64,000 nt of DNA from Microthyrium microscopicum (taxonomy: Eukaryota; Ascomycota; Dothideomycetes; Microthyriales; Microthyriaceae). The stretch covers positions 2,114,070 through 2,178,069 of the forward strand of contig MU004236.1 in assembly GCA_010405405.1 (NCBI GenBank). The letters are read 5' to 3'. The position numbers were made by a program, and so were the translations under genes. This document shows positions 1-59,175 of this stretch, in pieces. The stretch's first letter is position 1. The number at the start of each line of letters is the position of its first letter. Below the pieces are notes generated by a model. It did not search any database, was not told the origin of the DNA, and saw only the letters and a program-made list of their open reading frames with translations.

Positions 1-3000
1 TATAATACTATTTATTACTATTAATAAATAAGCTAAGTAAAGAGCTAGGTATTCCTTAATTAGGAAAATAGCTATAAATATACTACTTAGGAACTTTAGA
101 ATTAAGAGTATATATTCTTCTTTAAACTTTATTATTATATAACGTTAATTTTACTCTTTATTAATTACTATATTTACTTAATTATCCTCTAAATAAACTT
201 TAATCCTCTCTACTAAAACTACTACTCTTAAGAATATTTCTACTACTATAATTAAAATACTTTTAAATAGTTAACTAGTAGAAGTAGTTACTTAGACTAA
301 AGAAGATATATTAAATATAGGCTCTACGTCCTTTTAACCTTCTTTTTATAAAAATATTAAGATTTATAATAATATTATTATAGAGAATAGCTAAGAAACT
401 TTAGGCTTTACGTCTATTATTTTAGCTACTACCTATATATTTAGTACTAAAGGTTTAGGCGTAATACTCTAAATATAACTTCCTAGTAGTTAAATAACTA
501 CTATATTACTATTAAGTATTATTAAGAATATATTTAATAATAAGCATTTCTAAGTAAATTAAGGCTAGGCTATTATAAATTCTAAAGAGAAAAAAGTAGT
601 AAAAAAAGTAGCTAATAAGCTATAATACTAAAAAAATTATAATAAGAAAGTAAGGAAGGTAATAAAAGCTATACTTTAGGGTAAAAAACCCTTTAAACTA
701 TATAAGAAGTATTAGTCTCTTAAGTATTAGATAATAAGATATACCTTACTTAAGCTTAGTTATAAAGAGAGGAACGTTTATTATATTATATATAAGGCGT
801 TAAAAAAGAAGAGGAAGGCTACTATCTTATTATAAAGAGTTTTAAAAAAGGCTTCTAACTTAAAAGAAGCCCTAGTATAAGCTAGAGCTAAAAAAAAAAG
901 ATTATTTTAGAATCTTATAAGGGCTTATATAGCTAGAAGTTAATATAACTTCTAAAGCCTATTAAAATAGACTTTTAGACTACTTAGTAAGGTATCCTTA
1001 GATATATCTTAAGACTTAAGATAGATAAAGATAGATAAAAGCTATTTTTTCCTATAGCTAGTTATTATATAAATAATAATATTAAAAAAGTAATACTTAA
1101 AATAGGTAAGGTTATTACTAAAGAAGTTAACTAAGTCTTCTACTTTAATAGGCTAAAGAATTTAGTTATTAACCTAAATTTAAAGGCTATAATTAATTAC
1201 CTTATAACGTTAGAGCTACTTATTTCTCTAGATTTAGGTAGTAAATTATTTTTAGTCTATTCTTAGATTTTTAAAATAAATAACCTAGTTATATTCTTTA
1301 CTACTACTATTTATAGCTTTAAGGTAGTAGCTCTTATAGCTAGTTTTATAAAATTTAAAGTCTTCTAAGAATAGAGCCTTAGGTTTTAGCTTAGATATAA
1401 GTATACTATAATAATTAAAGGAAATTATTATATTATTATTTTTAATAAAGCGCTAAGAGTTTCTAAATTTTTGTTTAGTATTAATATTTTTAGAAAAAAT
1501 AAGAAAAAGCTTTTATTTAGGATAGAAAATAATAAGCTTACTTAATATCTAGTATATTATACTATAAAGAAAATAGATAATTATTATCTTATAGCGTATA
1601 GAAATCTAATATTAGTATCTATTCTTTAAAGTAATATCTCTAACTTAGGTAAGCTTACTTAGTATAAGTCTAATATTAATATCTTATATATAACTAGTTA
1701 TTTAAATAAATAGTTTTAATATAAGTATTCTTAATATATCTTCTATAACTAATTCTACTTATTAAGATAATTTATATATATATATAATAACTAAAAAGAT
1801 TAATATTATACTATTATAAGAAACTTAGCTTACTCCTAAAGTAATTAATAAGTTTTATATAAAGTTCCTTCTATTTAGGATTAAGGGCTTAAAGCTTAAT
1901 AGAGTAAATAGTAGAATTACTATTATAATAAATACTTATATATATACCTAGTCTCTAGACCTAGATACTATAATATTTAATAAGTTAGCTAAAAACCTTT
2001 ATAGTACTCTTTATATTATTTATATAAATAATAATATAAGAATACTATATTATATAATTAAGTATAAAGAGACTATAATAAGAATTAGTTATATATACCT
2101 ATTATTATAAGCTATCTAGTAAAAACCTTAGCTAACCTAATAGACTAAAAAGATTAAGGCTCTTTTAAACTATTTCTTATATAATATTATCGCTAAGGAT
2201 TAGAATAATGTCTTAGATCTAAGAGATTCTACTTCTATAAAGACTATAATATTAAGGCTAACTAATAAATTAAGAAGCTTTATACATATCTTAATAAAAG
2301 ACTACCTAATAGTTAATAAGTAGAGAGAAACTTACCCTAACTTAATTACTTATTTATAGTAGTAATTTAAAACTTAGATTACTTAAAGTAAGGCTACTAA
2401 TAATACTAATAATAACTAAACTAATACTAAAGATAACTCTTTATAACTAAGGGTCCTTAATTAGTTATAAATTAATAAAATTTATATTAGAGATAATTAG
2501 ATATTTTTATTATCTAGCTAGGATATATAGAAGAAGGTAATTAGAACTAACTACTATATTATTTCTTTCTAACTTAAGTTTCTATTCTAAAGAATATAAA
2601 GGCCTAAGTAGTTTAGAATTAATATAAACTTACTAAAATTATATAAAGTAAATTAACTACCTTTTAAATAAATTAAAGCTTTAAAAGAGCTATCTTAAAA
2701 AGATCTTTTTAAGTTATAATAAGGCTTTAAAAAGTTTATAGAAATTATATATAAGGAAGCTAAGATAAAGTCTATAAAGTCTAGAAATAAGCTTTATAGA
2801 ACTCTAAAGTCTAGAAGAGATAATATATATAGAAAAAAAGGAAACTATATTAATAAGGACTAAGACCTATAAAAGTAATTAGAATTTATTATTATAAGAA
2901 AGAGAGCTTTAAATAAATACTAGTAGTAATACTACTTATATAACGTTTTTATAAAATATATACTATTAAATAAAAAGCTAAATTAATAGTTTTATATAAA

Positions 3001-4965
3001 AATAAAAGCGTAGTAAGATATAAATATTATTATCTTAAGAGATACTAAGAGAATTATCTATAAGAATAAAGAAAATTTACTTTCTATTATATATAAGTTC
3101 TATATAAAGCTATTTAGTATAAAGATTAGTAATAAGAATACTATAAAGACTCTTCTAAAATACTATATAAAGAAGATTAAATATAAGTATAGAAGTACTT
3201 TAGTATAAAGAATCTTAAGACATAATATTTAGACTTTAATTAATTAGTTAGCCTTAGGTAAGTTACTTAGATTAGATAGTCTTATATTAAAGTTTTATAA
3301 GTTACTTTAGAAGTAAATTAAAAACTATAAAGATAGAAAGAATACTACTTTAGTCTTTTACCTTTTAGAAAGAGTTTATAAGAAAATTTAAACCTAGAAA
3401 GTACTATTAAAAGACTTTACTAAAGGTATATTAGCCTTTCTATATAAGAAGGGTAATAAGTTAGATATTAGGAATTATAAACTATTTTCTATTATAAATA
3501 TAGACTATAAGATATTTATAAATATACTTATATATTATCTTAATAAGGTATTNNNNNNNNNNNNNNNNNNNNNNNNNNNNNNNNNNNNNNNNNNNNNNNN
3601 NNNNNNNNNNNNNNNNNNNNNNNNNNNNNNNNNNNNNNNNNNNNNNNNNNNNNNNNNNNNNNNNNNNNNNNNNNNNNNNNNNNNNNNNNNNNNNNNNNNN
3701 NNNNNNNNNNNNNNNNNNNNNNNNNNNNNNNNNNNNNNNNNNNNNNNNNNNNNNNNNNNNNNNNNNNNNNNNNNNNNNNNNNNNNNNNNNNNNNNNNNNN
3801 NNNNNNNNNNNNNNNNNNNNNNNNNNNNNNNNNNNNNNNNNNNNNNNNNNNNNNNNNNNNNNNNNNNNNNNNNNNNNNNNNNNNNNNNNNNNNNNNNNNN
3901 NNNNNNNNNNNNNNNNNNNNNNNNNNNNNNNNNNNNNNNNNNNNNNNNNNNNNNNNNNNNNNNNNNNNNNNNNNNNNNNNNNNNNNNNNNNNNNNNNNNN
4001 NNNNNNNNNNNNNNNNNNNNNNNNNNNNNNNNNNNNNNNNNNNNNNNNNNNNNNNNNNNNNNNNNNNNNNNNNNNNNNNNNNNNNNNNNNNNNNNNNNNN
4101 NNNNNNNNNNNNNNNNNNNNNNNNNNNNNNNNNNNNNNNNNNNNNNNNNNNNNNNNNNNNNNNNNNNNNNNNNNNNNNNNNNNNNNNNNNNNNNNNNNNN
4201 NNNNNNNNNNNNNNNNNCTACTCTTTAATTTAAGGTAATAAAAGAGCTACTATTAGAGATTTATAAGTATACTATAAGAAGTAAAGAGAAAAAGCTAGTA
4301 CCTTTAATATAGTAACTATTATTAGTTTGTCCTATTTAATAGCTATTATTAAAAGTATTAACTTCCTTAAATTACTCTAAGTATAACTTATATAGAGTAT
4401 TAAGATATAATATATAGATATTAAAACTAAGATAGATTCTATAAGGATATATAATCCCTAGATAATAAGAATAGTAAAATCTTTTAAAGAACTCCTTAAA
4501 GTAATAAAAAAGTAAGAAGTATTATAAAAGAAATAGTTTAGTATAAATAAGTCTATAAACTTATTCTATATTAAATAACCTATTACTATAAATAAGATAT
4601 TATCTATTCTTTTCTAGTTCTATTTCTAAATTATAAGTATAAGAAATAGTAGAGCTAATACTTATAGCTTTAAGTCTTTTAATTAGCTATAGTATAATAA
4701 GGTAAAGACTATTAGAAATATTTAAAACCTAGTTTAATAAAAAGTTATTATATTTAATAACTATTCTTAAAGATAGGTTAACTTTATACTATTAGTAATA
4801 AAAAGATTCTATAAATAATTTCTACTATAGTAGAGAAACTTATTAAAATAAAGAGAATTAGGGAACTTAATACTTTTTACTTATAATTAATATTTTCTAA
4901 AGTTTTATAATAGTAATATAATTTATCCTTTAGCTATTATTAACTTTAAGAAACTATACTAAATA
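1..4965 (+). mobile_element. LINE-like (non-LTR) retrotransposon remnant, RIP-degraded
   Basis: The stretch is extremely AT-rich and poor in CA/TG dinucleotides, as expected after RIP. Read on the plus strand with TAA/TAG taken as former Gln/Trp codons, about 1801-1851 gives an endonuclease-like motif (N-I-I-L-L-x-E-T) and 2160-2390 resembles the later part of an APE-type endonuclease. Bases 3418-3552 read like the start of a LINE reverse transcriptase (KKG-N-K-x-D-I-R-NY, then a N-I-D-Y-K-I segment). An ORF1-like basic region lies at about 600-1000. The run of N hides the RT core. The bases after it (4218-4960) plausibly continue the RT C-terminal part. No end repeats or tail were located, so the limits are those of the window and of the LTR element inserted at 4966. 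Confidence 0.6.
3553..4217. other. assembly gap (665 N)
   Basis: This is a continuous run of undetermined bases inside the LINE-like remnant. It falls where the reverse transcriptase core of that element would be, and its true length may differ from the run of N. Confidence 0.99.
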
Positions 4966-35136: not shown

Positions 35137-38100
35137 CTTCGCGCGAGTTGTGGGTTCGATGAGGGGTGACGTAGCGCGCGCGGTTTCAACAGTGGATCAT
35201 GGTGGAGTGGCAGGCACGAAGAAGTTGTCGTGACTATCAGAGCCGATGATGGTAATATCGAGTATAATGGAATATTGAAGTGATAGAAAGGGCAATGGAA
35301 GCAGTGATGATTGACCTCGGACTGACAATGAAGCATGTCGCCCCACGATGTTTGGTTGGGGCTCTGTCAGATGTCACAAGACAGATCAAATGAGATCCCT
35401 GTGATCTTTTGACATGTGAATCCATTGCCCCTTTTCAACTTTCTTAGCATTTTGGTTTGGCTGGCTGCTGGCACGAGGATTGAAAATTAACAACAAAGTC
35501 ATAATTTCTTGGGGTTCCTACGGGCAGTTACCGTGATTGTCGCTTAACGACGCTCCCACCAAGGCTTTATTCTATACTAGGAGTGCGGTCTTCTTCGCGA
35601 GATCAAACAAGATCATTCATGTCTCTGACTTCTTTTTTCAAAGCTGAGTTTTAGTGCTCGAAAGTTTTGAGATCATTGTTCAAATGATTTACGAAAAGCT
35701 CAAGAATCGTCGTGCTTCATAAGGAAAGGTTGGCGACTAGAGTAGTTGATACGCATCGTCAGTTGACAACTGCATGTAAAGTACAGTAAGTTCTACATGG
35801 GAGGACAATTGATCTTCCCTAAGCAAAATATGGTTATTTCAGAAGCGATTGAAACTATCAAATCCCGTAGGTCAAAATGTAAGAGTAAGGTACGGTACCG
35901 TATGAAGCATGTGGGTGTGGATCTCCTCAAGTAAAATCACACTTACCAATTCTCGTGTAAATAGGGCCACGGGAGAGTAGAAGCAGAAACACTTTTGAAG
36001 ACCTTCAAACGATTGCAGTCGTTCTAAGCAACTGAAATTAATACCAAAAAACCATTGGCTCATTCATTAAATTCATTGCGGCTCTGCTCCCAATATAACT
36101 TCGGTAACAAATAAGCCTATCAAAAAGAAGCCACCTTAGCTCTTTATATTGGAATCTAGCCCAACGTCAGAAATGTCAATATGCAGATCATTTAAACAAT
36201 AATAACAACGGGCTTGCTAGTGTTCTTTTCGGGATCAATATCATATCAAAATCAATAGCTTACTCCCGACATGGGATTTTCGTGATCAACAAAACCTTGT
36301 CAATTCTAGTGCTTGAATCCTGGAATATGCTGCGGTATTTTACCGTCTTCTCAACGGCTAGCTAGCAGGCAGTGGCCGTTGGGGAGGCATGATTTTATGT
36401 CCCGAACGTTGGCTGGGATGAAGGATGATGGCAGGGGGTATGGCGATGTCCACATTGATCTTCGACGTTGAGGTCCTGGTTCAATTGGAAGCGCTAAATT
36501 CGGATTGATACTGGTAACTAGGTAAACTGGGATTGAAGCTCCCCATTCGTTGGTGATCATTGATGTCACAAATGGCGTGTTCTGCCTGTGAACGCTTGCT
36601 CTGGCAGCACTGATAAGGTCGTCTTGAGTCCTGTGTTTACTGAAACTGCAGAGTGATGCCGAGCACGACGATTTAATTGTAACTCCGAAATCGTGTGAAA
36701 GGCCATATATTGTTTGCTGGGAAAAGCAAGCTAGATATAGAAATGGTAACACCAGACCGAAGCTTGATCCTTACAAAAATGCTTAGATAGAAAGTACTTA
36801 CACAGGTACGGATTGTACGGAGTAGGAGGTAGCTCGGACAAACAGATTGTAAGTAACGCAAAAGCGTACAGTATTCGCAGTTGTGAGATGTACTTGGGTA
36901 ATACCCTATTCTACGAAGGCAAGTCGAAGATGCGGGTGCAATACGGGCTCACCAAAACGGAGAAGAGTCTCGGCCAAGTCATACAAAAGTATATGCAGTG
37001 CGCTGTTCAATCGTATTGAATCAGTCTAGTAGTTCGTGATGTTTATTCTCGTTACAAGGTCCATGCCTCTGGGTCACTTTGGACATATCCCTGGTTTAAT
37101 TAGAGTCGAATAAGGTTATATTGAACATTCTTATTCCTTATCGCGAGGAACATGGTATTCGAATGCGGAATAACCAACCAGTAGCAACTAGGAATTGCAG
37201 TTGACCGAAAGCGCCAGGCTTCCAACATTCTGACAAGAGAAGTTGGACTTTCCCGAGACATGCAGGAGTTCGTGCAGTAAAGATCGAGCTAGATCTAAGC
37301 AAGCGCCTTCTCAATTATGCGATGTTGGCGGTAAACTCGTTCAGGCTTAAAGATGTTTTGTCAATCTGCGAATTGAATGCTGCTGGGTGGCTGGATTTGA
37401 AGGATTTGATAAGAGAGGCTTGTTCTTGAAGCGACGGCGCAGTTGCTTCGTGCTCGATAATGGAGAAAGCAGAGCTCGATCTGTGCAGACACTCAGGCAG
37501 GCGGTTGTATATAACGCGCTAACAGTGAGCACGAGTCGGAAAAGCCATTACTATAAGCACGCGAGCTATGTTCCTGTGGTAATTTGGAGGCATAAAGTAG
37601 CAGGGCCAATACTGGAAAGGCAGTTGGTACAACCATCCCAGCTCCCACGCTCGGTTTTGACACGTTGTATCTGCAGCGAACAAGGAAGGCTTGAAAGGTT
37701 TGGAAGAAGTTGGCAGGCTAGAGTATTGGTACCGAGTGACTAAGGACGTCGGAAACGCGGAGTAGGGGATGAAATACTTGGTGGTAACTTGGTAACTTGG
37801 TAACTTGGTAACTTGGTACATGATGGATGTAGGTAGGAGATAATTGTGCAAAAATATTTTGATGAAGAGTGCTTGGTTCGGCTGTCGCGGAAGCTTGACC
37901 TTGACTGGGGGAACGATAGCTTGATCTTCTTCTCCATACTAGTAGCTATTCCTTATGTCTGTAATCTGTTTAGCCAATGACTTGTAGTTGGTACATAAAT
38001 CCAAGCGACCAGACTTTTTGGTGGAGTATGAGCGGCGAGATAGATAGGATTATTCCGACCAACGGGACCAGCGAACCAACGTTGAACGATCAACGATATT

Positions 38101-38370: not shown

Positions 38371-41300
38371 ATGCGAAGACGACCTTCCGCGTCCACCACC
38401 GATGAGGAGGACGATAGCCCTTCCACCGCGAATACCTCAAAATCCTCCGTCTCTCCTCCATCTACCTCTCCCGATAGACCTGCGAAAAATACTAGATCCA
38501 AGCAATACCTTAATCCTACACCTCCTCCTGCTTCAGCCAAGCGGAAACAAAGTCGGCGGGCCGACTCTTCAAAGCAGAACTGGAAGGCTTCGACGATAGC
38601 ATCTTCAGATGGGCTCTCTCTTTCCGAACGCGACCTGACCTCATCACATATGGCGCAATTCAGCGGTATGGCTAAAAGAGCCAGGTTACGAAACCCTTGG
38701 GCCATGTCATGGCTGTCATTGGGCACTTTGGTCACTGCCGTGACCTTGGTACTGTGCCTATACCAGTCCTTTACTTTGCGCCAATTGGATCCAAAGGGAG
38801 GCAGCATGTCATACATGGCCAGCTCATTTGTGAACTTTGGCGATTTTGATACAGAACACACGCGCTTTGCGACCAAGTACTCGTTACATTTATACCGCGA
38901 ACTTGGAGTGGACGAAGATCCTCGAGTAAGACCTACAGGCGCATTGGAAAGTATTGGCAACTAACTCTTTTTAGGTCAAAGGTGTTCCAGTTCTGTTCAT
39001 ACCAGGAAATGCTGGCAGCTACAAGCAGGTTCGATCACTTGCCGCCGAAGCCGAATATTATTTTGATCAAGAAATTCGACACGATTCAAGCGCTCTGGAT
39101 GCTGGAAAACGCGCTTTGGATTTCTTTACCGTTGACTTCAATGAGGATTTTACAGCCTTTCATGGTCAAACGCTACTTGACCAAGCCGAATATCTAAATG
39201 ATGCGATTGCTTATATACTATCGCTATATCACAACCCCGAGAAATCGAGAAAGGACCCAAAGTTACCCGATCCGAGTTCCGTAATCCTCGTTGGACATTC
39301 AATGGGTGGTATCGTTGCTCGTACCATGCTCACGATGCCAAATTACCAAACAAATTCCGTTAATACCATAATTACATTATCCGCGCCTCACGCAAGACCT
39401 CCCGTCACCTTTGACTCCCAGATGGTACAAACATACAAAACAATCAACGACTACTGGAGGCGATCGCATTCGAAAGAATGGGGCATGGATAATCCTCTAT
39501 GGCACGTCACGCTAATCTCAATCGCTGGTGGAGGATTAGACACCATTGTACCGTCTGATTATGCTAGCGTTTCTTCCCTAGTTCCAGAAACCCATGGATT
39601 CACGGTTTTCACGTCGTCGATACCCAATGTCTGGACTGGCATGGATCATCTTGCTATCACATGGTGTGACGAATTCCGTAAAACAGTAATCAGGGCAATA
39701 TTTGACGTATTGGACGTTGCTCGTCCAGCCCAAACGAAACCTCGCGGGGAACGAATGAGGGCCTTTAAAACGTGGTTTTTGACTGGCTTGGAAGATATTG
39801 CGGAGAAAAGTCTACCGCACACTGGTAAGGCTGATAAGCGCCATGTATTTCATATTTCTAACCATATTACAGAGCCCAAAACTCTTCTCACACTCGAGGA
39901 CGGAGGAAATACCATGCTCGCGCAAGGCGAAAGACTAGTCATCCGCGCTCTTGGCCATCAAAGTGGCACCAAGGCCTATTTTCTACCCGTTCCCCCTCAA
40001 GGCACTTCAGAAGGACGAAAGTTTACTATGCTTACAAGCGCGCATGTCGATCATCAAGGGCACAGTGATCAGATCGAGATTCTATTCTGCAGTGTGTTTC
40101 CTCTCCAAGCTGGACACTCGGAAAGTTTGTTCTCCATGAACCTGGATCTTTCTGGCGATGCACATGGATCCGGATCCACTCGATTGGCGTGCAAAAATGG
40201 TGGTATGGATGCAATTGCTCTACCTGCATCAACATCGCATTCGCAATTCCCGTTCGAGAAGACTCGTCCTTATACGTACTTCCAATACGACCTGGAAACC
40301 CTCGCCGAGCATCAGTTCATTGCGATTGTCGACAAGGCTGAAACTGTCAGCTATGACTTTTTGATCGCCGAGTTCAGCGCACGATCTGAGTCTCGAGTAT
40401 TCTCCAATGTGGATACTCAACAACTCTTGAGCTCAGGCGTGCATTGGACACTTCCCGCAAATCGTCCTATGCTGATGGATATCAACCTCCCTGCCTTGGA
40501 GTCCAGCCTTTTCTCCTTCCATCTTTCCATCTCGCCAAACAACTGTGGCGCCGAAACTTTGTTTCGACCATTGGTTCGACAATACATATCTGATGTTTTC
40601 GAGTCCAAATTTTTCGTCAACGTTGAAGAAGTAGATGTGAACCTGCACGGTGTTGCGCCATATATGCCACCATCAATGAGAGCCAAGGACAAACAGCATG
40701 GACTATCATTCCAACTTTGGTCTGATCCTACGTGTGCAACACCTCTCAATGTTTCTCTTACTTTAGACATTCCCGGAAGTTTCGGAAAACTCTGGATGCG
40801 CTACAGAACTCTATTTGCTACTTTCCCGTTGGTGATGGTCGCATTAGTACTGTCCCAGCAATTCCGAGTTTATGACGAATCTGGACTGTTCATGAGCTTT
40901 GCTGAAGGTTTGAACTTGAGTCTTCAGCGTGAAATTCCAGCTCTCCTAACATTCATAATCTTTATAATTGCGGTCATGTCAAAATCATCGACAACCTTGG
41001 AGCAGAATGGCGAATTGATGGATTGGTTTGCTCAATACCGCAGCAATGCCACCGAGTCAATGTCCGACTACACTATGAACAACCTTCTCTTTGGCTCCCA
41101 TGACCCCTTTTTCTGGTTCCTTGTCCCGGTTTTCGGCGTAATATGCACTGGCCTTTGCATTGCCATTAATTATGCTATCCTCATTGTCACCTATCTCTTC
41201 ACATTACTGCTTGCTCAATTGATGTCCCAGAGTAAAACCGAGGACTCAAGGTACGTCAGATTTACCGTTCTTAAAAAACATTGCTAATAACATAACAGAA

Positions 41301-53348: not shown

Positions 53349-54554
53349 ATGGGGGACAATAAAGATGCGGATGCCTTTCCATGGCATCTAGGCGTATTCG
53401 ATGCTCATTGCCACCCAACTGACATCAATGCTTCTATCGCAAAAATTCCAGACATGAAGGCTCAAACATTGGCTCTCATGGCAACACGTGGGGAAGATCA
53501 AGAAATGGTTCACGAAGCAGCTCAGAATCTCGGTCCCAAAGGCACCACCCTCGACAAGAACGTTCGAGTACTGCCATCATTTGGCTGGCATCCTTGGATG
53601 GCTCACTTACTATTTGATGATACTCAATTTGATGGTCGAACGACACTCACTCAGGATGAAAGGAGAAAGCACTTTGACTCTGTGCTCACGCCTGCTCCAT
53701 CAGATGACTCGTTTGTCAAGGCACCCGAGGAACTGGTCGCGCTCTCAACATATCTCGGCCAGCAACGCGAGTATCTACTTCAACACCCCCTCGCCATGGT
53801 TGGCGAAGTAGGAATCGACAGGAGATTCCGCATACCCACACCGTGGACAGCAGAAGAGTTCCAGAAGCGAACAATGCTACGAACTGGCGGCTCAAGAGAA
53901 GGTCGCGGGCTGTCTCCTCAAAGTGTATCCATGGAGCATCAACTCAAAGTTCTAGAAGCCCAAGTACGTCTGGCTGGTGAACTGGAGAGACCTGTAAGTG
54001 TCCATGGAGTACAAGCTCACGGGGCATTGTTCGACTTCTTCAACAAACTATGGAAAGGGCACGAGATAGAGAGCAAAACCAAAGCAAAACGAAGAAGAGC
54101 AGAAGCTCTAGAAGCCAAAAACGTCGCTGCTCAAAAGGACGATGATTCACCCCCAGCGACTGAAGAGACTAAGGCGGATACTCAAACTACTACAAAGCCG
54201 TTTCCACCACGGATATGTCTTCACTCCTACTCAGGACCAGCCACGAATCTGAAACAATATTTCAAATACACAGTTCCCAGCAAAGTCTATGTCTCCTTCT
54301 GTATGGAAATCAACTTTGCTACAAATGGTGGAGTATCGAAGGCAGAAGAATGTATAAAGTTTCTGCCGGCCGATAGAATCTTGATAGAAAGTGATTTGCA
54401 TAGAGCTGGACCAGAGATGGATCAGAAGCTAGAAGAAATAGCGCGAAAGATCTGTGACCTGAGAGGTTGGAGCCTTGAAGAGGGCGTCAAAATTCTCGGC
54501 GAGAATTGGAAAAGCTTTGTATTAGGATCGACAGATAAACAACAGGAGAAGTAA
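53349..54554 (+). CDS. scn1: TatD-family metal-dependent hydrolase, Scn1-like (401 aa)
   Basis: This is a single-exon gene. FDAHCHP near residue 18 gives the first metal ligands, then FGWHPW, MVGEVGID (Glu ligand) near 155, PVSVHGVQAHG (His ligand) near 220, ICLHSYSG (His ligand) near 297 and a late LIESDLH (Asp). This order is the TatD barrel. The F-D-A-H-C-H-P start and the long spacing resemble the fungal Scn1 (Cut9-interacting protein) branch rather than the DNase Tat-D proper. A Lys/Glu-rich insertion of about 50 residues (about 238-285) sits between two ligand motifs and is probably a disordered loop. The function is a phosphodiesterase-type hydrolase of uncertain substrate. Confidence 0.85.
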   Translation: MGDNKDADAFPWHLGVFDAHCHPTDINASIAKIPDMKAQTLALMATRGEDQEMVHEAAQNLGPKGTTLDKNVRVLPSFGWHPWMAHLLFDDTQFDGRTTLTQDERRKHFDSVLTPAPSDDSFVKAPEELVALSTYLGQQREYLLQHPLAMVGEVGIDRRFRIPTPWTAEEFQKRTMLRTGGSREGRGLSPQSVSMEHQLKVLEAQVRLAGELERPVSVHGVQAHGALFDFFNKLWKGHEIESKTKAKRRRAEALEAKNVAAQKDDDSPPATEETKADTQTTTKPFPPRICLHSYSGPATNLKQYFKYTVPSKVYVSFCMEINFATNGGVSKAEECIKFLPADRILIESDLHRAGPEMDQKLEEIARKICDLRGWSLEEGVKILGENWKSFVLGSTDKQQEK

Positions 54555-55258: not shown

Positions 55259-56159
55259 ATGAGATTCCAAACATTTGTATCTATTGCGCTTGCCGCTGGC
55301 TTCGTTGCTGCTCTGCCTACTCCTCAGGAGGATGTGAACTCCATCCTCGCAGCTCTCGAGGCAAACAGGTAAGCTCTAAGACTCGAGTATTTGCGACCAT
55401 CTACTTACATGTGTAGCCCCGAGGATGCCAGTGCCGCACGTGGTGGTCCGAACAAGCGTCAAGACGACATCGCTTCTGTCCTTGCAGCTCTTAAGGCCAA
55501 CAGGTACATATCAAACCACCCATGATCCGGGGAAAGCAAGATAGCTGACAGACTGTAGCCCCGAAGATGCCAGCGCCGCTCGTGGTGGCCTAAACAAGCG
55601 TCAAGGTACGCAAGCACTCAGAAATACAAGTTCAACATCTGACAGAGTGATAGATCTCAGTGATATCACATCACTTCTCGGGGGCGGAGCCGCCGGAGGC
55701 GCTGGAGGTGCTGCTAATGCGGATCCTCTTGATGCCATCACTGGCCTCATCACTAAGCGTCAAGACGACGTTGCTTCCATTCTCGATGACCTTGAGAAGA
55801 ACAAGTGAGTACAACTAAGCAATACGTCTCTTTGCATTGCTGACATGTGGCAGCCCAGATGATGCCAAAGCCGCCCGTGGTGGCTTGAACAAGCGTCAAG
55901 ATGACATTGCCTCTGTTCTCGCTGACCTCGAGAAGAACAAGTGAGTATGGAAGAGCAGTACAAGATCGCATTGCTGACATTAAGTAGCCCAGATGATGCT
56001 CAAGCCGCCCGTGGTGGTTTGAACAAACGCCAGGACGACGTTGCCTCCATTCTCGATGATCTTGAGAAGAACAAGTAAGTTGACTCGAGCCAAAAAATGT
56101 TTACATTTCTGACATGCATCAGCCCAGATGATGCCAAAGCCGCCCGCGGGGGATTGTAA
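55259..56159 (+). CDS. secreted repeat-peptide precursor with Kex2 sites (201 aa, 7 exons)
   Basis: Inferred exons are 55259-55368, 55417-55503, 55559-55605, 55654-55804, 55854-55940, 55988-56074 and 56123-56159, together 606 nt. Exons 2, 5 and 6 are each exactly 87 nt and all inner introns of this type share phase 2, so the array grew by exon duplication without breaking the frame. The protein begins with a signal peptide (MRFQTFVSIALAAGFVAA), then repeated units of the form Q-D-D-I/V-A-S-V/I-L-x-x-L-x-x-N-S/N-P-E/D-D-A-x-A-A-R-G-G-L-N-K-R. Each unit ends in Lys-Arg, a Kex2 cleavage site, and the next starts with Gln, which could form pyroglutamate. Exon 4 carries a different unit with a Gly/Ala-rich core. 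The last unit stops before its K-R. Predicted products are four or five peptides of about 25-30 residues. No aromatic or Cys residues occur in the repeats. Role unknown. Confidence 0.8.
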
Positions 56160-56808
56160 AGGCTAGAGAAGGTGTTTAAGTCCTCGCTATCCTTGAGAAA
56201 ACAAGTAAGTAGATGCCCTGTACATTGGCAGCTGAGATCTAGAGCTAATGGTCTTAGTCCTACTGATTTTGCTATCGTTGGCTCGATTTAGATGGAGAGG
56301 ATGGGAGCATTAGATATTGGTGAATGATTATTCGCACAGATACCTAGCAGTCTGCAATATATAGGCCAGAAACGATAGCCTTGACTTTGGAACTCAATCA
56401 AAGAATGGTCATGTGAAAGTGATATGCCCCTTTTCATCAGATCAAGGACGCGACTGACTACCAATGGCAATCGATGAAGGTATGTAGTTACAAGTAAGAG
56501 CCTGTTCAATAGGCATACGACTGATGCCAAAATGAGTATGAAAAGTGAATGGACAGCTCGCAGAGCTAGTCTGGTCGAATTCGTGGAATGAAGTATCGTG
56601 AAAAGGAACGTTTAAACTGTCCTTGGTATTGATTGGCCAAAGGCTTCATCAGACAGAGACCCTGTAAAATGCACATCGGAAGCTGCAACTTTTTTGCCAT
56701 CACCAAAAAGATCTTTTGAATCTTTTCCTATCCAGCCCACAAGCAGAAGATTATCTCTGTTCCGCACTACTTCTACCATATCCAGAATTCCAGCAACTCT
56801 TTATAGCC
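56160..56808. other. downstream of the repeat-peptide gene, with a decayed further repeat
   Basis: Bases 56160-56215 still resemble the second half of a repeat exon followed by a donor site (CTTGAGAAAACAAGTAAGT), and bases near 56256-56275 resemble the start of a next exon after an AG acceptor. The remaining region shows no gene and contains the promoter of pam18. Confidence 0.5.
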
Positions 56809-57793: not shown

Positions 57794-59175
57794 ATGCAAT
57801 CGGGTAAGTCTTCTACTCCTACGTCTTCTTCATCACATACTAATGTGGTATCGTAGTTGAAGAAATCCTAGAGCAGGCTGCAGGTGGCGGCTCAATCCAG
57901 AGGTACACCGTACACTTTTACGACTCGATGCGCTTTGTACTAACAGATGCAGCGATGACTGGTCTCGAGTCCGCGACTTTATCTTAAACAGAATAGAAAC
58001 AGCAGGTGCTCTGCAAGACTCATCCTTGATTTGATCACTGACAGCAACAGCTTGTATCCGACGAATTTCCTTCACCTCCGTCTTCCCTAACCTCACCACC
58101 ACAACCGCCAGCGCAAGCGATATCCTCCTCCGAGACGGACCTCAACAGCTCGCCAACGATAACTAGAAGCTCTCGCGTGACGCCAACACAAGAATTAGAG
58201 TCAACGGATAAGGAAAATGCCCCTCCGCAGGTCACCTCAAATGCAACCTTGGATTTCTTCGGACAAGCTCAGTCGAAGCCATCACCATTAGATATTGCCA
58301 AAGGCCTTCAAGCCGACATTCGAGATAGCTTGTCTAGAGGGTTTCCTACATACCCTCCCCATACCATCCAGCGACTTTCAGAATTAATACTCTGGCCGAA
58401 GCGAGAATATCGGTACCTTCCCGCTTATCTACAAGCCCTCAATCGCGTTGTGAGCGTAACAAGCAATACATCGATATTTCCTTTACCACATCACACGGCT
58501 CCTCAGTCAGCGACAGCTGGCTTATTAGTCAATGGAAATATTGACTCGGCATTAGGAAGCGATGAAAGCCTAGGTGGTGCTCTTCTCACTCCAATTCCAT
58601 GGCTGACAGCAAATTCGCCGTCAACAGATGCAGATCGCGACCTACAGGATACGGCCCAGCGACTACATGACCAGCACGCCATCGATACACCGAGCTCTAG
58701 CGATACTGTGATGTCAAATGGCGAAATTACACCTGAGAGCTCGACCGACGAACCTGGATCGCCTTCTAGCGTAGAGGCCGCTCTACGGGCTGAAGGTGCT
58801 GTCACACAAGGTGAGCTATTGCGCCTAGAGCAAGAGGCCGGTGTGGTGCCTGTTCCTTCAAGACATGGAATCATGGATGATGATTTGAACATTATGGACA
58901 CGGCTGACGACGATGCGTCAGATGGACATGCACCACCGACTACTACCGCTGCAGCAGAAGAGTCTGAAGAGATTCCTCATGCGCGAGGCCCGGAGGAGAT
59001 TGGGGTTGAAGATATGGGGCCTCAATCCGGCGCCCCGGGTGGCGTGGAAGGGATTTTGCGAGAACACCAAGCTCATGAGCCGACGCAAGGGCAGACAGCG
59101 GAACAGGAGAGTGATACGGGCATGGACGTGGACACTAAGGCAGAGGAGACAGCGAAGGAAGCGGACACATCTTAA
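57794..59175 (+). CDS. psy4: PP4 regulatory subunit 2 (PPP4R2/Psy4-like, about 411 aa)
   Basis: Inferred exons are 57794-57803, 57857-57902, 57953-58001 and 58045-59175, together 1236 nt. The start M-Q-S-V-E-E-I-L-E-Q-A-A-G-G-G-S leads into D-D-W-S-R-V-R-D-F-I-L-N-R-I-E, then Q-Q-L-V-S-D-E-F-P-S-P-P and a conserved block F-P-T-Y-P-P-H-T-I-Q-R-L-S-E-L with Y-R-Y-L-P-A-Y-L-Q-A-L-N-R-V. The C-terminal half is acidic and disordered (D-T-A-D-D-D-A-S-D and more), as in PPP4R2 proteins, which regulate protein phosphatase 4 in DNA damage recovery and splicing. The third intron keeps the frame only if it begins with GC at 58002 (GC-AG) and ends at 58044. The obvious GT donor at 58006 would shift it. 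A frame error in the assembly is the other explanation. Confidence 0.75.

Follow-up and report, generated by a model that had tools for sequence, protein, structure and literature searches.

The gene described here lies in a 64,000-nt stretch of Microthyrium microscopicum DNA (the window) and is best explained as a secreted KEX2-processed repeat protein (KEP) that would give rise to two kinds of peptides, five copies of an acidic unit (B) and one copy of a different unit (A). The A unit would have been gained via recombination between repeated KRQ codons, which encode the Kex2 sites of the precursor, and a related unit was found in a second precursor gene on another contig of the same genome. 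The two genes are called here the C7 gene and the C9 gene after their contigs. To this explanation as a whole we give a probability of roughly 0.8.

The initial annotation had proposed a secreted multi-copy precursor with Kex2 sites and duplicated 87-nt exons at this locus, and both the proposal and the location are supported by the sequence. One reading frame of seven exons fits, with a start at 55259 and a stop at 56156-56158; spliced lengths of 110, 87, 47, 151, 87, 87 and 36 nt give a precursor of 201 aa with a TAA stop and without inner stop (Table 1). Each of the six introns has GT at its start and AG at its end, measures 47-55 nt and displays, by eye, a CTNAC motif close to the 3' end, a motif that is often found at fungal branch points. 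Exons of exactly 87 nt with identical intron phase had been described. This holds for three of the seven exons (2, 5 and 6) and for introns 1, 2, 4, 5 and 6, which are all in phase 2, but the other four exons differ in length and intron 3 is, from the exon lengths, in phase 1. Retention of intron 3 (48 nt) would introduce neither a stop nor a frame shift and would result in a longer A peptide, while retention of any of the other five introns would lead to a stop, at once in four of them and after a few codons for intron 2.

Table 1. Features of the C7 gene and of genes in its surroundings, in window coordinates
Feature	Position	Strand	Basis
PGAP1	38975-41287		Pfam match
TatD DNase	53349-54554		Pfam match
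Exon 1: signal-peptide-like start, LPTP spacer, B1 first half (QEDVNSILAALEAN)	55259-55368	+	splice model, hydropathy
Intron 1: 48 nt, phase 2, GTAAG...TAG	55369-55416	+	splice model
Exon 2: 87 nt; B1 end, KRQ, B2 start	55417-55503	+	splice model, dibasic sites
Intron 2: 55 nt, phase 2	55504-55558	+	splice model
Exon 3: 47 nt; B2 end and KRQ; left portion of the interrupted 87-nt B exon	55559-55605	+	splice model, empty-site reconstruction
A cassette, putatively inserted: 159 nt, intron 3 plus 111 coding nt	55606-55764	+	homologous to the C9 gene
Intron 3: 48 nt, phase 1	55606-55653	+	splice model
Exon 4: 151 nt; A unit LSDITSLLGGGAAGGAGGAANADPLDAITGLIT-KR, then B3 first half	55654-55804	+	splice model
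Right-hand 40 nt of the B exon interrupted by the A cassette; with the 47 nt of exon 3, 87 nt in frame	55765-55804	+	empty-site reconstruction
Intron 4: 49 nt, phase 2	55805-55853	+	splice model
Exon 5: 87 nt; B3 end, KRQ, B4 start	55854-55940	+	splice model, dibasic sites
Intron 5: 47 nt, phase 2	55941-55987	+	splice model
Exon 6: 87 nt; B4 end, KRQ, B5 start	55988-56074	+	splice model, dibasic sites
Intron 6: 48 nt, phase 2	56075-56122	+	splice model
Exon 7: 36 nt; B5 end (ARGGL), TAA stop	56123-56158	+	splice model
Decayed further B unit, directly behind the stop codon, donor-like GTAAGT at its end	56159-56213	+	alignment
PPP4R2	58042-59175		Pfam match

Cutting the precursor at KR gives six fragments: the signal-peptide-like start together with B1, then B2, A, B3, B4 and B5. 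B1 reads QEDVNSILAALEANSPEDASAARGGPN, B2 QDDIASVLAALKANSPEDASAARGGLN and A QDLSDITSLLGGGAAGGAGGAANADPLDAITGLIT, and B3, B4 and B5 are of the QDDVASILDDLEKNNPDDAKAARGGL[N] type. The units had been regarded as near-identical, most of them ending in N-K-R and followed by Q-D-D. Such a description fits the five B copies, which are acidic and 26-27 aa long, but it left unseparated the different 35-aa unit A of exon 4; in addition, NKR is present at four of the five borders (the remaining one is TKR) and QDD also at four of five (the remaining one is QDL). The precursor contains five dibasic sites, every one of which is a KR followed by Q and is located at a unit border, A/B junctions included, and the last B copy ends at the stop codon without KR. 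When the sequence behind residue 18 was shuffled, at least five KR were obtained in 1 of 20000 shuffles and at least five KRQ in none of 20000. In parallel, Tandem Repeats Finder placed the array (55755-56146, period 134, score 425) at the top of its 25 rows for the window. Of these rows, 23 fall in positions 1-22000, mostly with AT-rich units; this part of the window has no ORF of at least 150 aa and looks like a mutated repeat region. Elsewhere, 4.6 perfect copies of TGGTAACT were observed at 37782-37818.

The array appears to have been longer in the past, since a decayed B unit lies behind the stop codon. Alignment of 56183-56213 to a unit end plus splice donor gave a score of 37, which none of 500 shuffles reached, and the portion before 56183 comes from a separate alignment only. 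Compared in pairs, the three 87-nt exons are identical at 60 to 74 of 87 nt, and introns 1, 2, 4, 5 and 6 are 47 to 63% identical over their ten pairs, as would be expected from the duplication of an exon together with its intron. Between copies, silent changes far exceed amino-acid changes, which shows selection on the peptide sequences. For instance, all 6 changes between B3 and B5 are silent, dS is 1.16 and dN 0.12 between B1 and B2, and pS is higher than pN in all ten B pairs, silent sites being saturated in two of them. This is the pattern that a conserved peptide product would leave among copies. Moreover, the near-absence of amino-acid change weakly suggests that the peptides have a specific partner to bind, as a signal or on a target, rather than forming a bulk coat.

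The B peptides carry a net charge of -2 to -4 with Eisenberg hydrophobicity means of -0.22 to 0.02. They had also been qualified as probably helical, a view that is not supported: for B1 to B4, 681 to 3957 of 5000 shuffles attain as high a hydrophobic moment. One tentative possibility, which we hold to be unlikely on balance, is a surface role on hyphae resembling that of Rep1 of Ustilago maydis, with assembly of the released peptides on the wall altering wettability or attachment. The A peptide would suit this role, as it has 35 aa, is rich in Gly and Ala and is mildly hydrophobic (Eisenberg mean 0.34), and Rep1 peptides are Kex2-released, 35-53 aa long and form surface fibrils (PMC4617103). 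On the contrary, the B peptides are charged rather than hydrophobic, their amino-acid near-identity exceeds what a coat would seem to need, and no Pfam family reaches the cut-off.

The surroundings of the gene were also considered. Nearby ORFs were scanned with Pfam; three of nine have a match, namely TatD DNase, PPP4R2 and PGAP1, and six have none. In addition, a gene at about 56810, the first part of which is without Pfam match, is presumably a Tim14/Pam18. No oxidase gene is present among the Pfam matches of the nine nearby ORFs scanned. The earlier statement that no UstYa-type gene is nearby was borne out as well: PF11807 has 23 matches genome-wide when each exon is counted separately, and the one on C7 that lies nearest to the gene ends at 755632, at a distance of about 1.4 Mb. 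Four adjacent UstYa (PF11807) matches were observed at C9:1831997-1834222, at a distance of about 62 kb from the precursor gene of that contig, and these possibly form a separate dikaritin-type cluster. A further hypothesis, slightly less credible than action at the hyphal surface, is that the peptides target another organism, a host or a competitor, in an effector-like or antimicrobial manner. It draws on a study of Coprinopsis in which kep knockouts had no detectable phenotype and whose authors suggest a role in biotic interactions (PMC9769878). Against it, the neighbours of the C7 gene give no pointer in this direction, those with a Pfam match being all housekeeping-like.

Regarding release, the product of the C7 gene would enter the secretory pathway as a KEP, kexin would cleave behind each KR, and a Kex1-like S10 carboxypeptidase would then trim K and R. 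Thereby, a 35-aa A peptide would be liberated along with five B peptides, which would be linear, acidic and 26-27 aa long; the N-terminal residue would be Gln, which may cyclize to pyroglutamate. Were signal peptide cleavage to take place ahead of LPTP, a Ste13-type X-P dipeptidyl peptidase could strip LP and TP so that the first copy would be Gln-headed too. No tailoring enzyme would be expected. The genome encodes a kexin on C1, which is its sole PF01483 match and whose ORF has Kexin 2id4 as best PDB match (E 4e-174), and it contains 25 matches to the S10 family and three to DPPIV_N; for glutaminyl cyclase, the family searched, PF05096, has no match in the genome. In Coprinopsis, measurements have revealed KEP peptides that are linear and headed by pyroglutamate (PMC9769878). 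Alternatively, the C7 protein may stay uncut and act whole, for example in the cell wall, its KR being incidental. We consider this improbable, given the location of all dibasic sites at unit borders and the presence of a kexin gene.

The A unit turned up elsewhere when the genome was searched with the C7 precursor, as three matches at C9 1769309-1769665 with 70, 88 and 93% identity. The corresponding C9 gene (L009 1361-2604) has a signal-peptide-like start, a KRQ, a 47-nt phase-1 intron, two amino-acid-identical A units, a diverged third A unit and a further KRQ. It ends either at a stop or, via a 312-nt intron, with a Gly-rich tail, in which case the spliced product has 294 aa. All four of its dibasic sites are KRQ at unit borders, and its units 1 and 2 differ by 15 silent and 0 amino-acid changes (0, 0 and 15 by codon position).

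The A unit of the C7 gene and unit 1 of the C9 gene are identical at 92 of 111 nt, with 15 silent and 4 other changes, and the homology extends to the intron: intron 3 of the C7 gene and intron 1 of the C9 gene are identical in 33 of 48 aligned columns, a score reached by none of 400 shuffles. The best local alignment between the two genes, 55595-55765 against L009 1453-1622, has KRQ codons at both ends. On the other hand, their promoter stretches are unalike (score reached by 30 of 200 shuffles) and so are their first exons (95 of 200). By alignment, the A cassette is thus identified as the homologue of intron 1 plus unit 1 of the C9 gene, own intron included. Within the C7 gene, the cassette occupies the interior of a B exon. 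Its excision restores an exon of 87 nt, in frame, which is identical at 66 to 73 of 87 nt to the three intact 87-nt exons. Moreover, the 10-nt sequence AAGCGTCAAG is found twice, immediately left of the cassette and at the cassette's own right end.

From these data we infer, as the plain reading, that the A cassette was inserted into the B array via recombination between KRQ codons, the intron being carried along and the frame kept; the direction of transfer, into the C7 gene, is read from the empty site alone, and both direction and recombination mechanism are read from one event. The insertion does not seem recent, since the silent distance between the A unit of the C7 gene and unit 1 of the C9 gene (15) equals that between units 1 and 2 of the C9 gene (15). 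Could the A unit instead be a diverged B unit that arose without any cassette transfer? Both kinds share D-I-x-S-x-L near the start and a KR end. However, the alignment scores are little above those of shuffles, and homology between A and B units, which was considered as a candidate relationship, was not supported. The score of the C7 A unit against the B2 to B4 cores was reached by 127 to 274 of 2000 shuffles, and that of the C9 units against the same cores by 161 to 725 of 2000. Together with the nucleotide identity to unit 1 of the C9 gene and the intron in common, this makes an origin of A by divergence from B very improbable.

With the entry of the A unit, one C7 transcript would now yield both peptides, and the C9 gene would yield A-type peptides without B. 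The same KRQ codons at both ends of the cassette suggest how an intron-bearing unit could enter another precursor in frame and be at once spliced and processed. As homology is bounded by KRQ codons and the promoter and first exon are unrelated, the Kex2-site codons seem to be joints of module exchange. That such codons serve more broadly as joints at which precursor genes with no other relationship swap entire peptide cassettes is a proposition that we put at even odds. For the majority of peptides derived from KEPs no function is known, and the origin of differences between their repertoires is an open question for which the pair of genes provides a concrete case: one genome contains the cassette with its defined borders, the exact empty site and a gene that resembles a donor. 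If the same exchange were to be found in orthologues, Kex2 sites would be recombination joints besides cutting sites and fungi could thereby alter the mix of secreted peptides from one transcript. In addition, the co-release of two peptides would lend itself to testing whether KEP peptides act jointly.

Relatives of the two genes were sought in several collections. Within the genome, the A unit has a paralogue in the C9 gene; for B, all matches among the best candidates scored (5/5 and 5/5) fall within the C7 gene or immediately behind it. In the same genome, 5.8S rRNA was not found, and an opsin has PDB entry 7bmh as its best match. A match on contig C3 (E 2.48) corresponds to a small secreted-looking protein (L014 1501-1680, reverse strand) in which a short propeptide precedes the one LNKRQ; inspection by eye showed no repeats and it was rejected as a repeat precursor. 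No Pfam family scores above the cut-off, the strongest being HSBP1 (E 0.00017, 21.8 bits where the cut-off is 28.6). In the same way, PatX of NCBIfam (E 0.0016) is below cut-off, and the B array has no PDB match with an E of 0.1 or below. Scans of a viral contig collection found no relative among the pattern matches obtained with the C7 precursor (3), the C9 A array (406) and the A-unit alignment (143). A scan of genome contigs gave 70 pattern matches and from them one locus, in a Spirochaetes MAG, with 27% identity over query residues 114-199, which was judged to be due to chance. As these collections comprise viruses and prokaryotes, their silence is uninformative about fungi. A full-text literature search with peptide strings returned matches via 'AARGGL' alone, unrelated by title.

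The gene had been presented as a candidate new Kex2-processed repeat protein from a family that looked undescribed. A new kind of precursor is not supported, KEPs being a defined class of which thousands have been catalogued, with 1193 in 226 species in one study (PMC6339444) and 7878 in 1345 of 1461 strains in another (PMC7329392). The first study asks for at least four KR/RR fragments, at least three of which are alike, and for repeats that make up at least 15% of the protein (PMC6339444). The C7 precursor gives six fragments, five of them with a B unit (five and four alike when the last fragment is left out), and has five 26-27-aa units in 201 aa. The second study asks for at least three tandem repeats of 8-100 aa between Kex2 sites (PMC7329392), which are found here from the KR fragments. 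The first one also requires a signal peptide and no transmembrane segment (PMC6339444); the N-terminal hydrophobic stretch of the precursor reaches a 12-residue Kyte-Doolittle mean of 2.36 and, behind residue 25, no 19-residue hydropathy mean is above 0.79. By these published sequence criteria the C7 gene is a predicted KEP, its signal peptide being judged from hydropathy only. Moreover, precursors with two motif types are already known, 77 of 1193 KEPs having two and two KEPs having three (PMC6339444), so that the C7 gene would belong to a known class. In the main texts of both studies, the words 'intron' and 'exon' do not occur, and the only KEP mention found in PMC8329847 is a citation of Umemura. 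In the open-licence literature searched, no account was found of exon-per-repeat KEPs or of cassette exchange, nor was a putative intron-bearing cassette common to a second gene and bounded by Kex2 codons found described.

Several known systems resemble the C7 gene. Dikaritin precursors (ustiloxin, phomopsin, asperipin) share its predicted layout of a signal peptide and repeated Kex2-cut cores, but the C7 gene has no UstYa (DUF3328) gene nearby and its core units contain no Tyr; indeed, the earlier remark on Trp, Cys and Tyr could be confirmed, the whole 201-aa precursor being devoid of all three. A peptide of 27 aa is also long for a pheromone. An alpha-type mating pheromone is therefore the least credible identity for the C7 peptide, even though the layout is that of ascomycete alpha-pheromone precursors and possible X-P (Ste13-type) dipeptides, LP-TP, stand ahead of the first copy, since Trp and Cys are lacking and the Dothideomycetes core PYG[LM]P[IV]G (PMC6339444), the sole core tested, is absent from the precursor.

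Type G-9 of Umemura (type #16), with 48 KEPs in 14 genera of which 0/48 are near DUF3328 (PMC7329392), is a possible home of the C7 gene, the two being compared by description only. Both lack a UstYa gene nearby, and T2SSM_b, one of three Pfam models listed for G-9, matches the C7 gene weakly (E 0.021, below cut-off). On the contrary, CARD_2 and DUF3953, the other two, are absent from the C7 matches, and G-9 is not named among the several-Asp types in the text of PMC7329392. In Rep1, Hum3 and Rsp1 of Ustilago maydis, too, repeats of 18-55 aa are separated by Kex2 motifs (PMC4617103); these proteins are likened here by description rather than by sequence, and differ from the C7 gene in that its B units are acidic. 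The C7 gene also resembles KEPs at large in layout (Le Marquer 2019, Umemura 2020), in which a signal-peptide-like start is followed by at least three similar units between KR sites that account for most of the protein. The C7 gene differs from them in that its units are split over 87-nt exons with phase-2 introns and in that its second unit type would be an intron-bearing cassette common to a gene on another contig.
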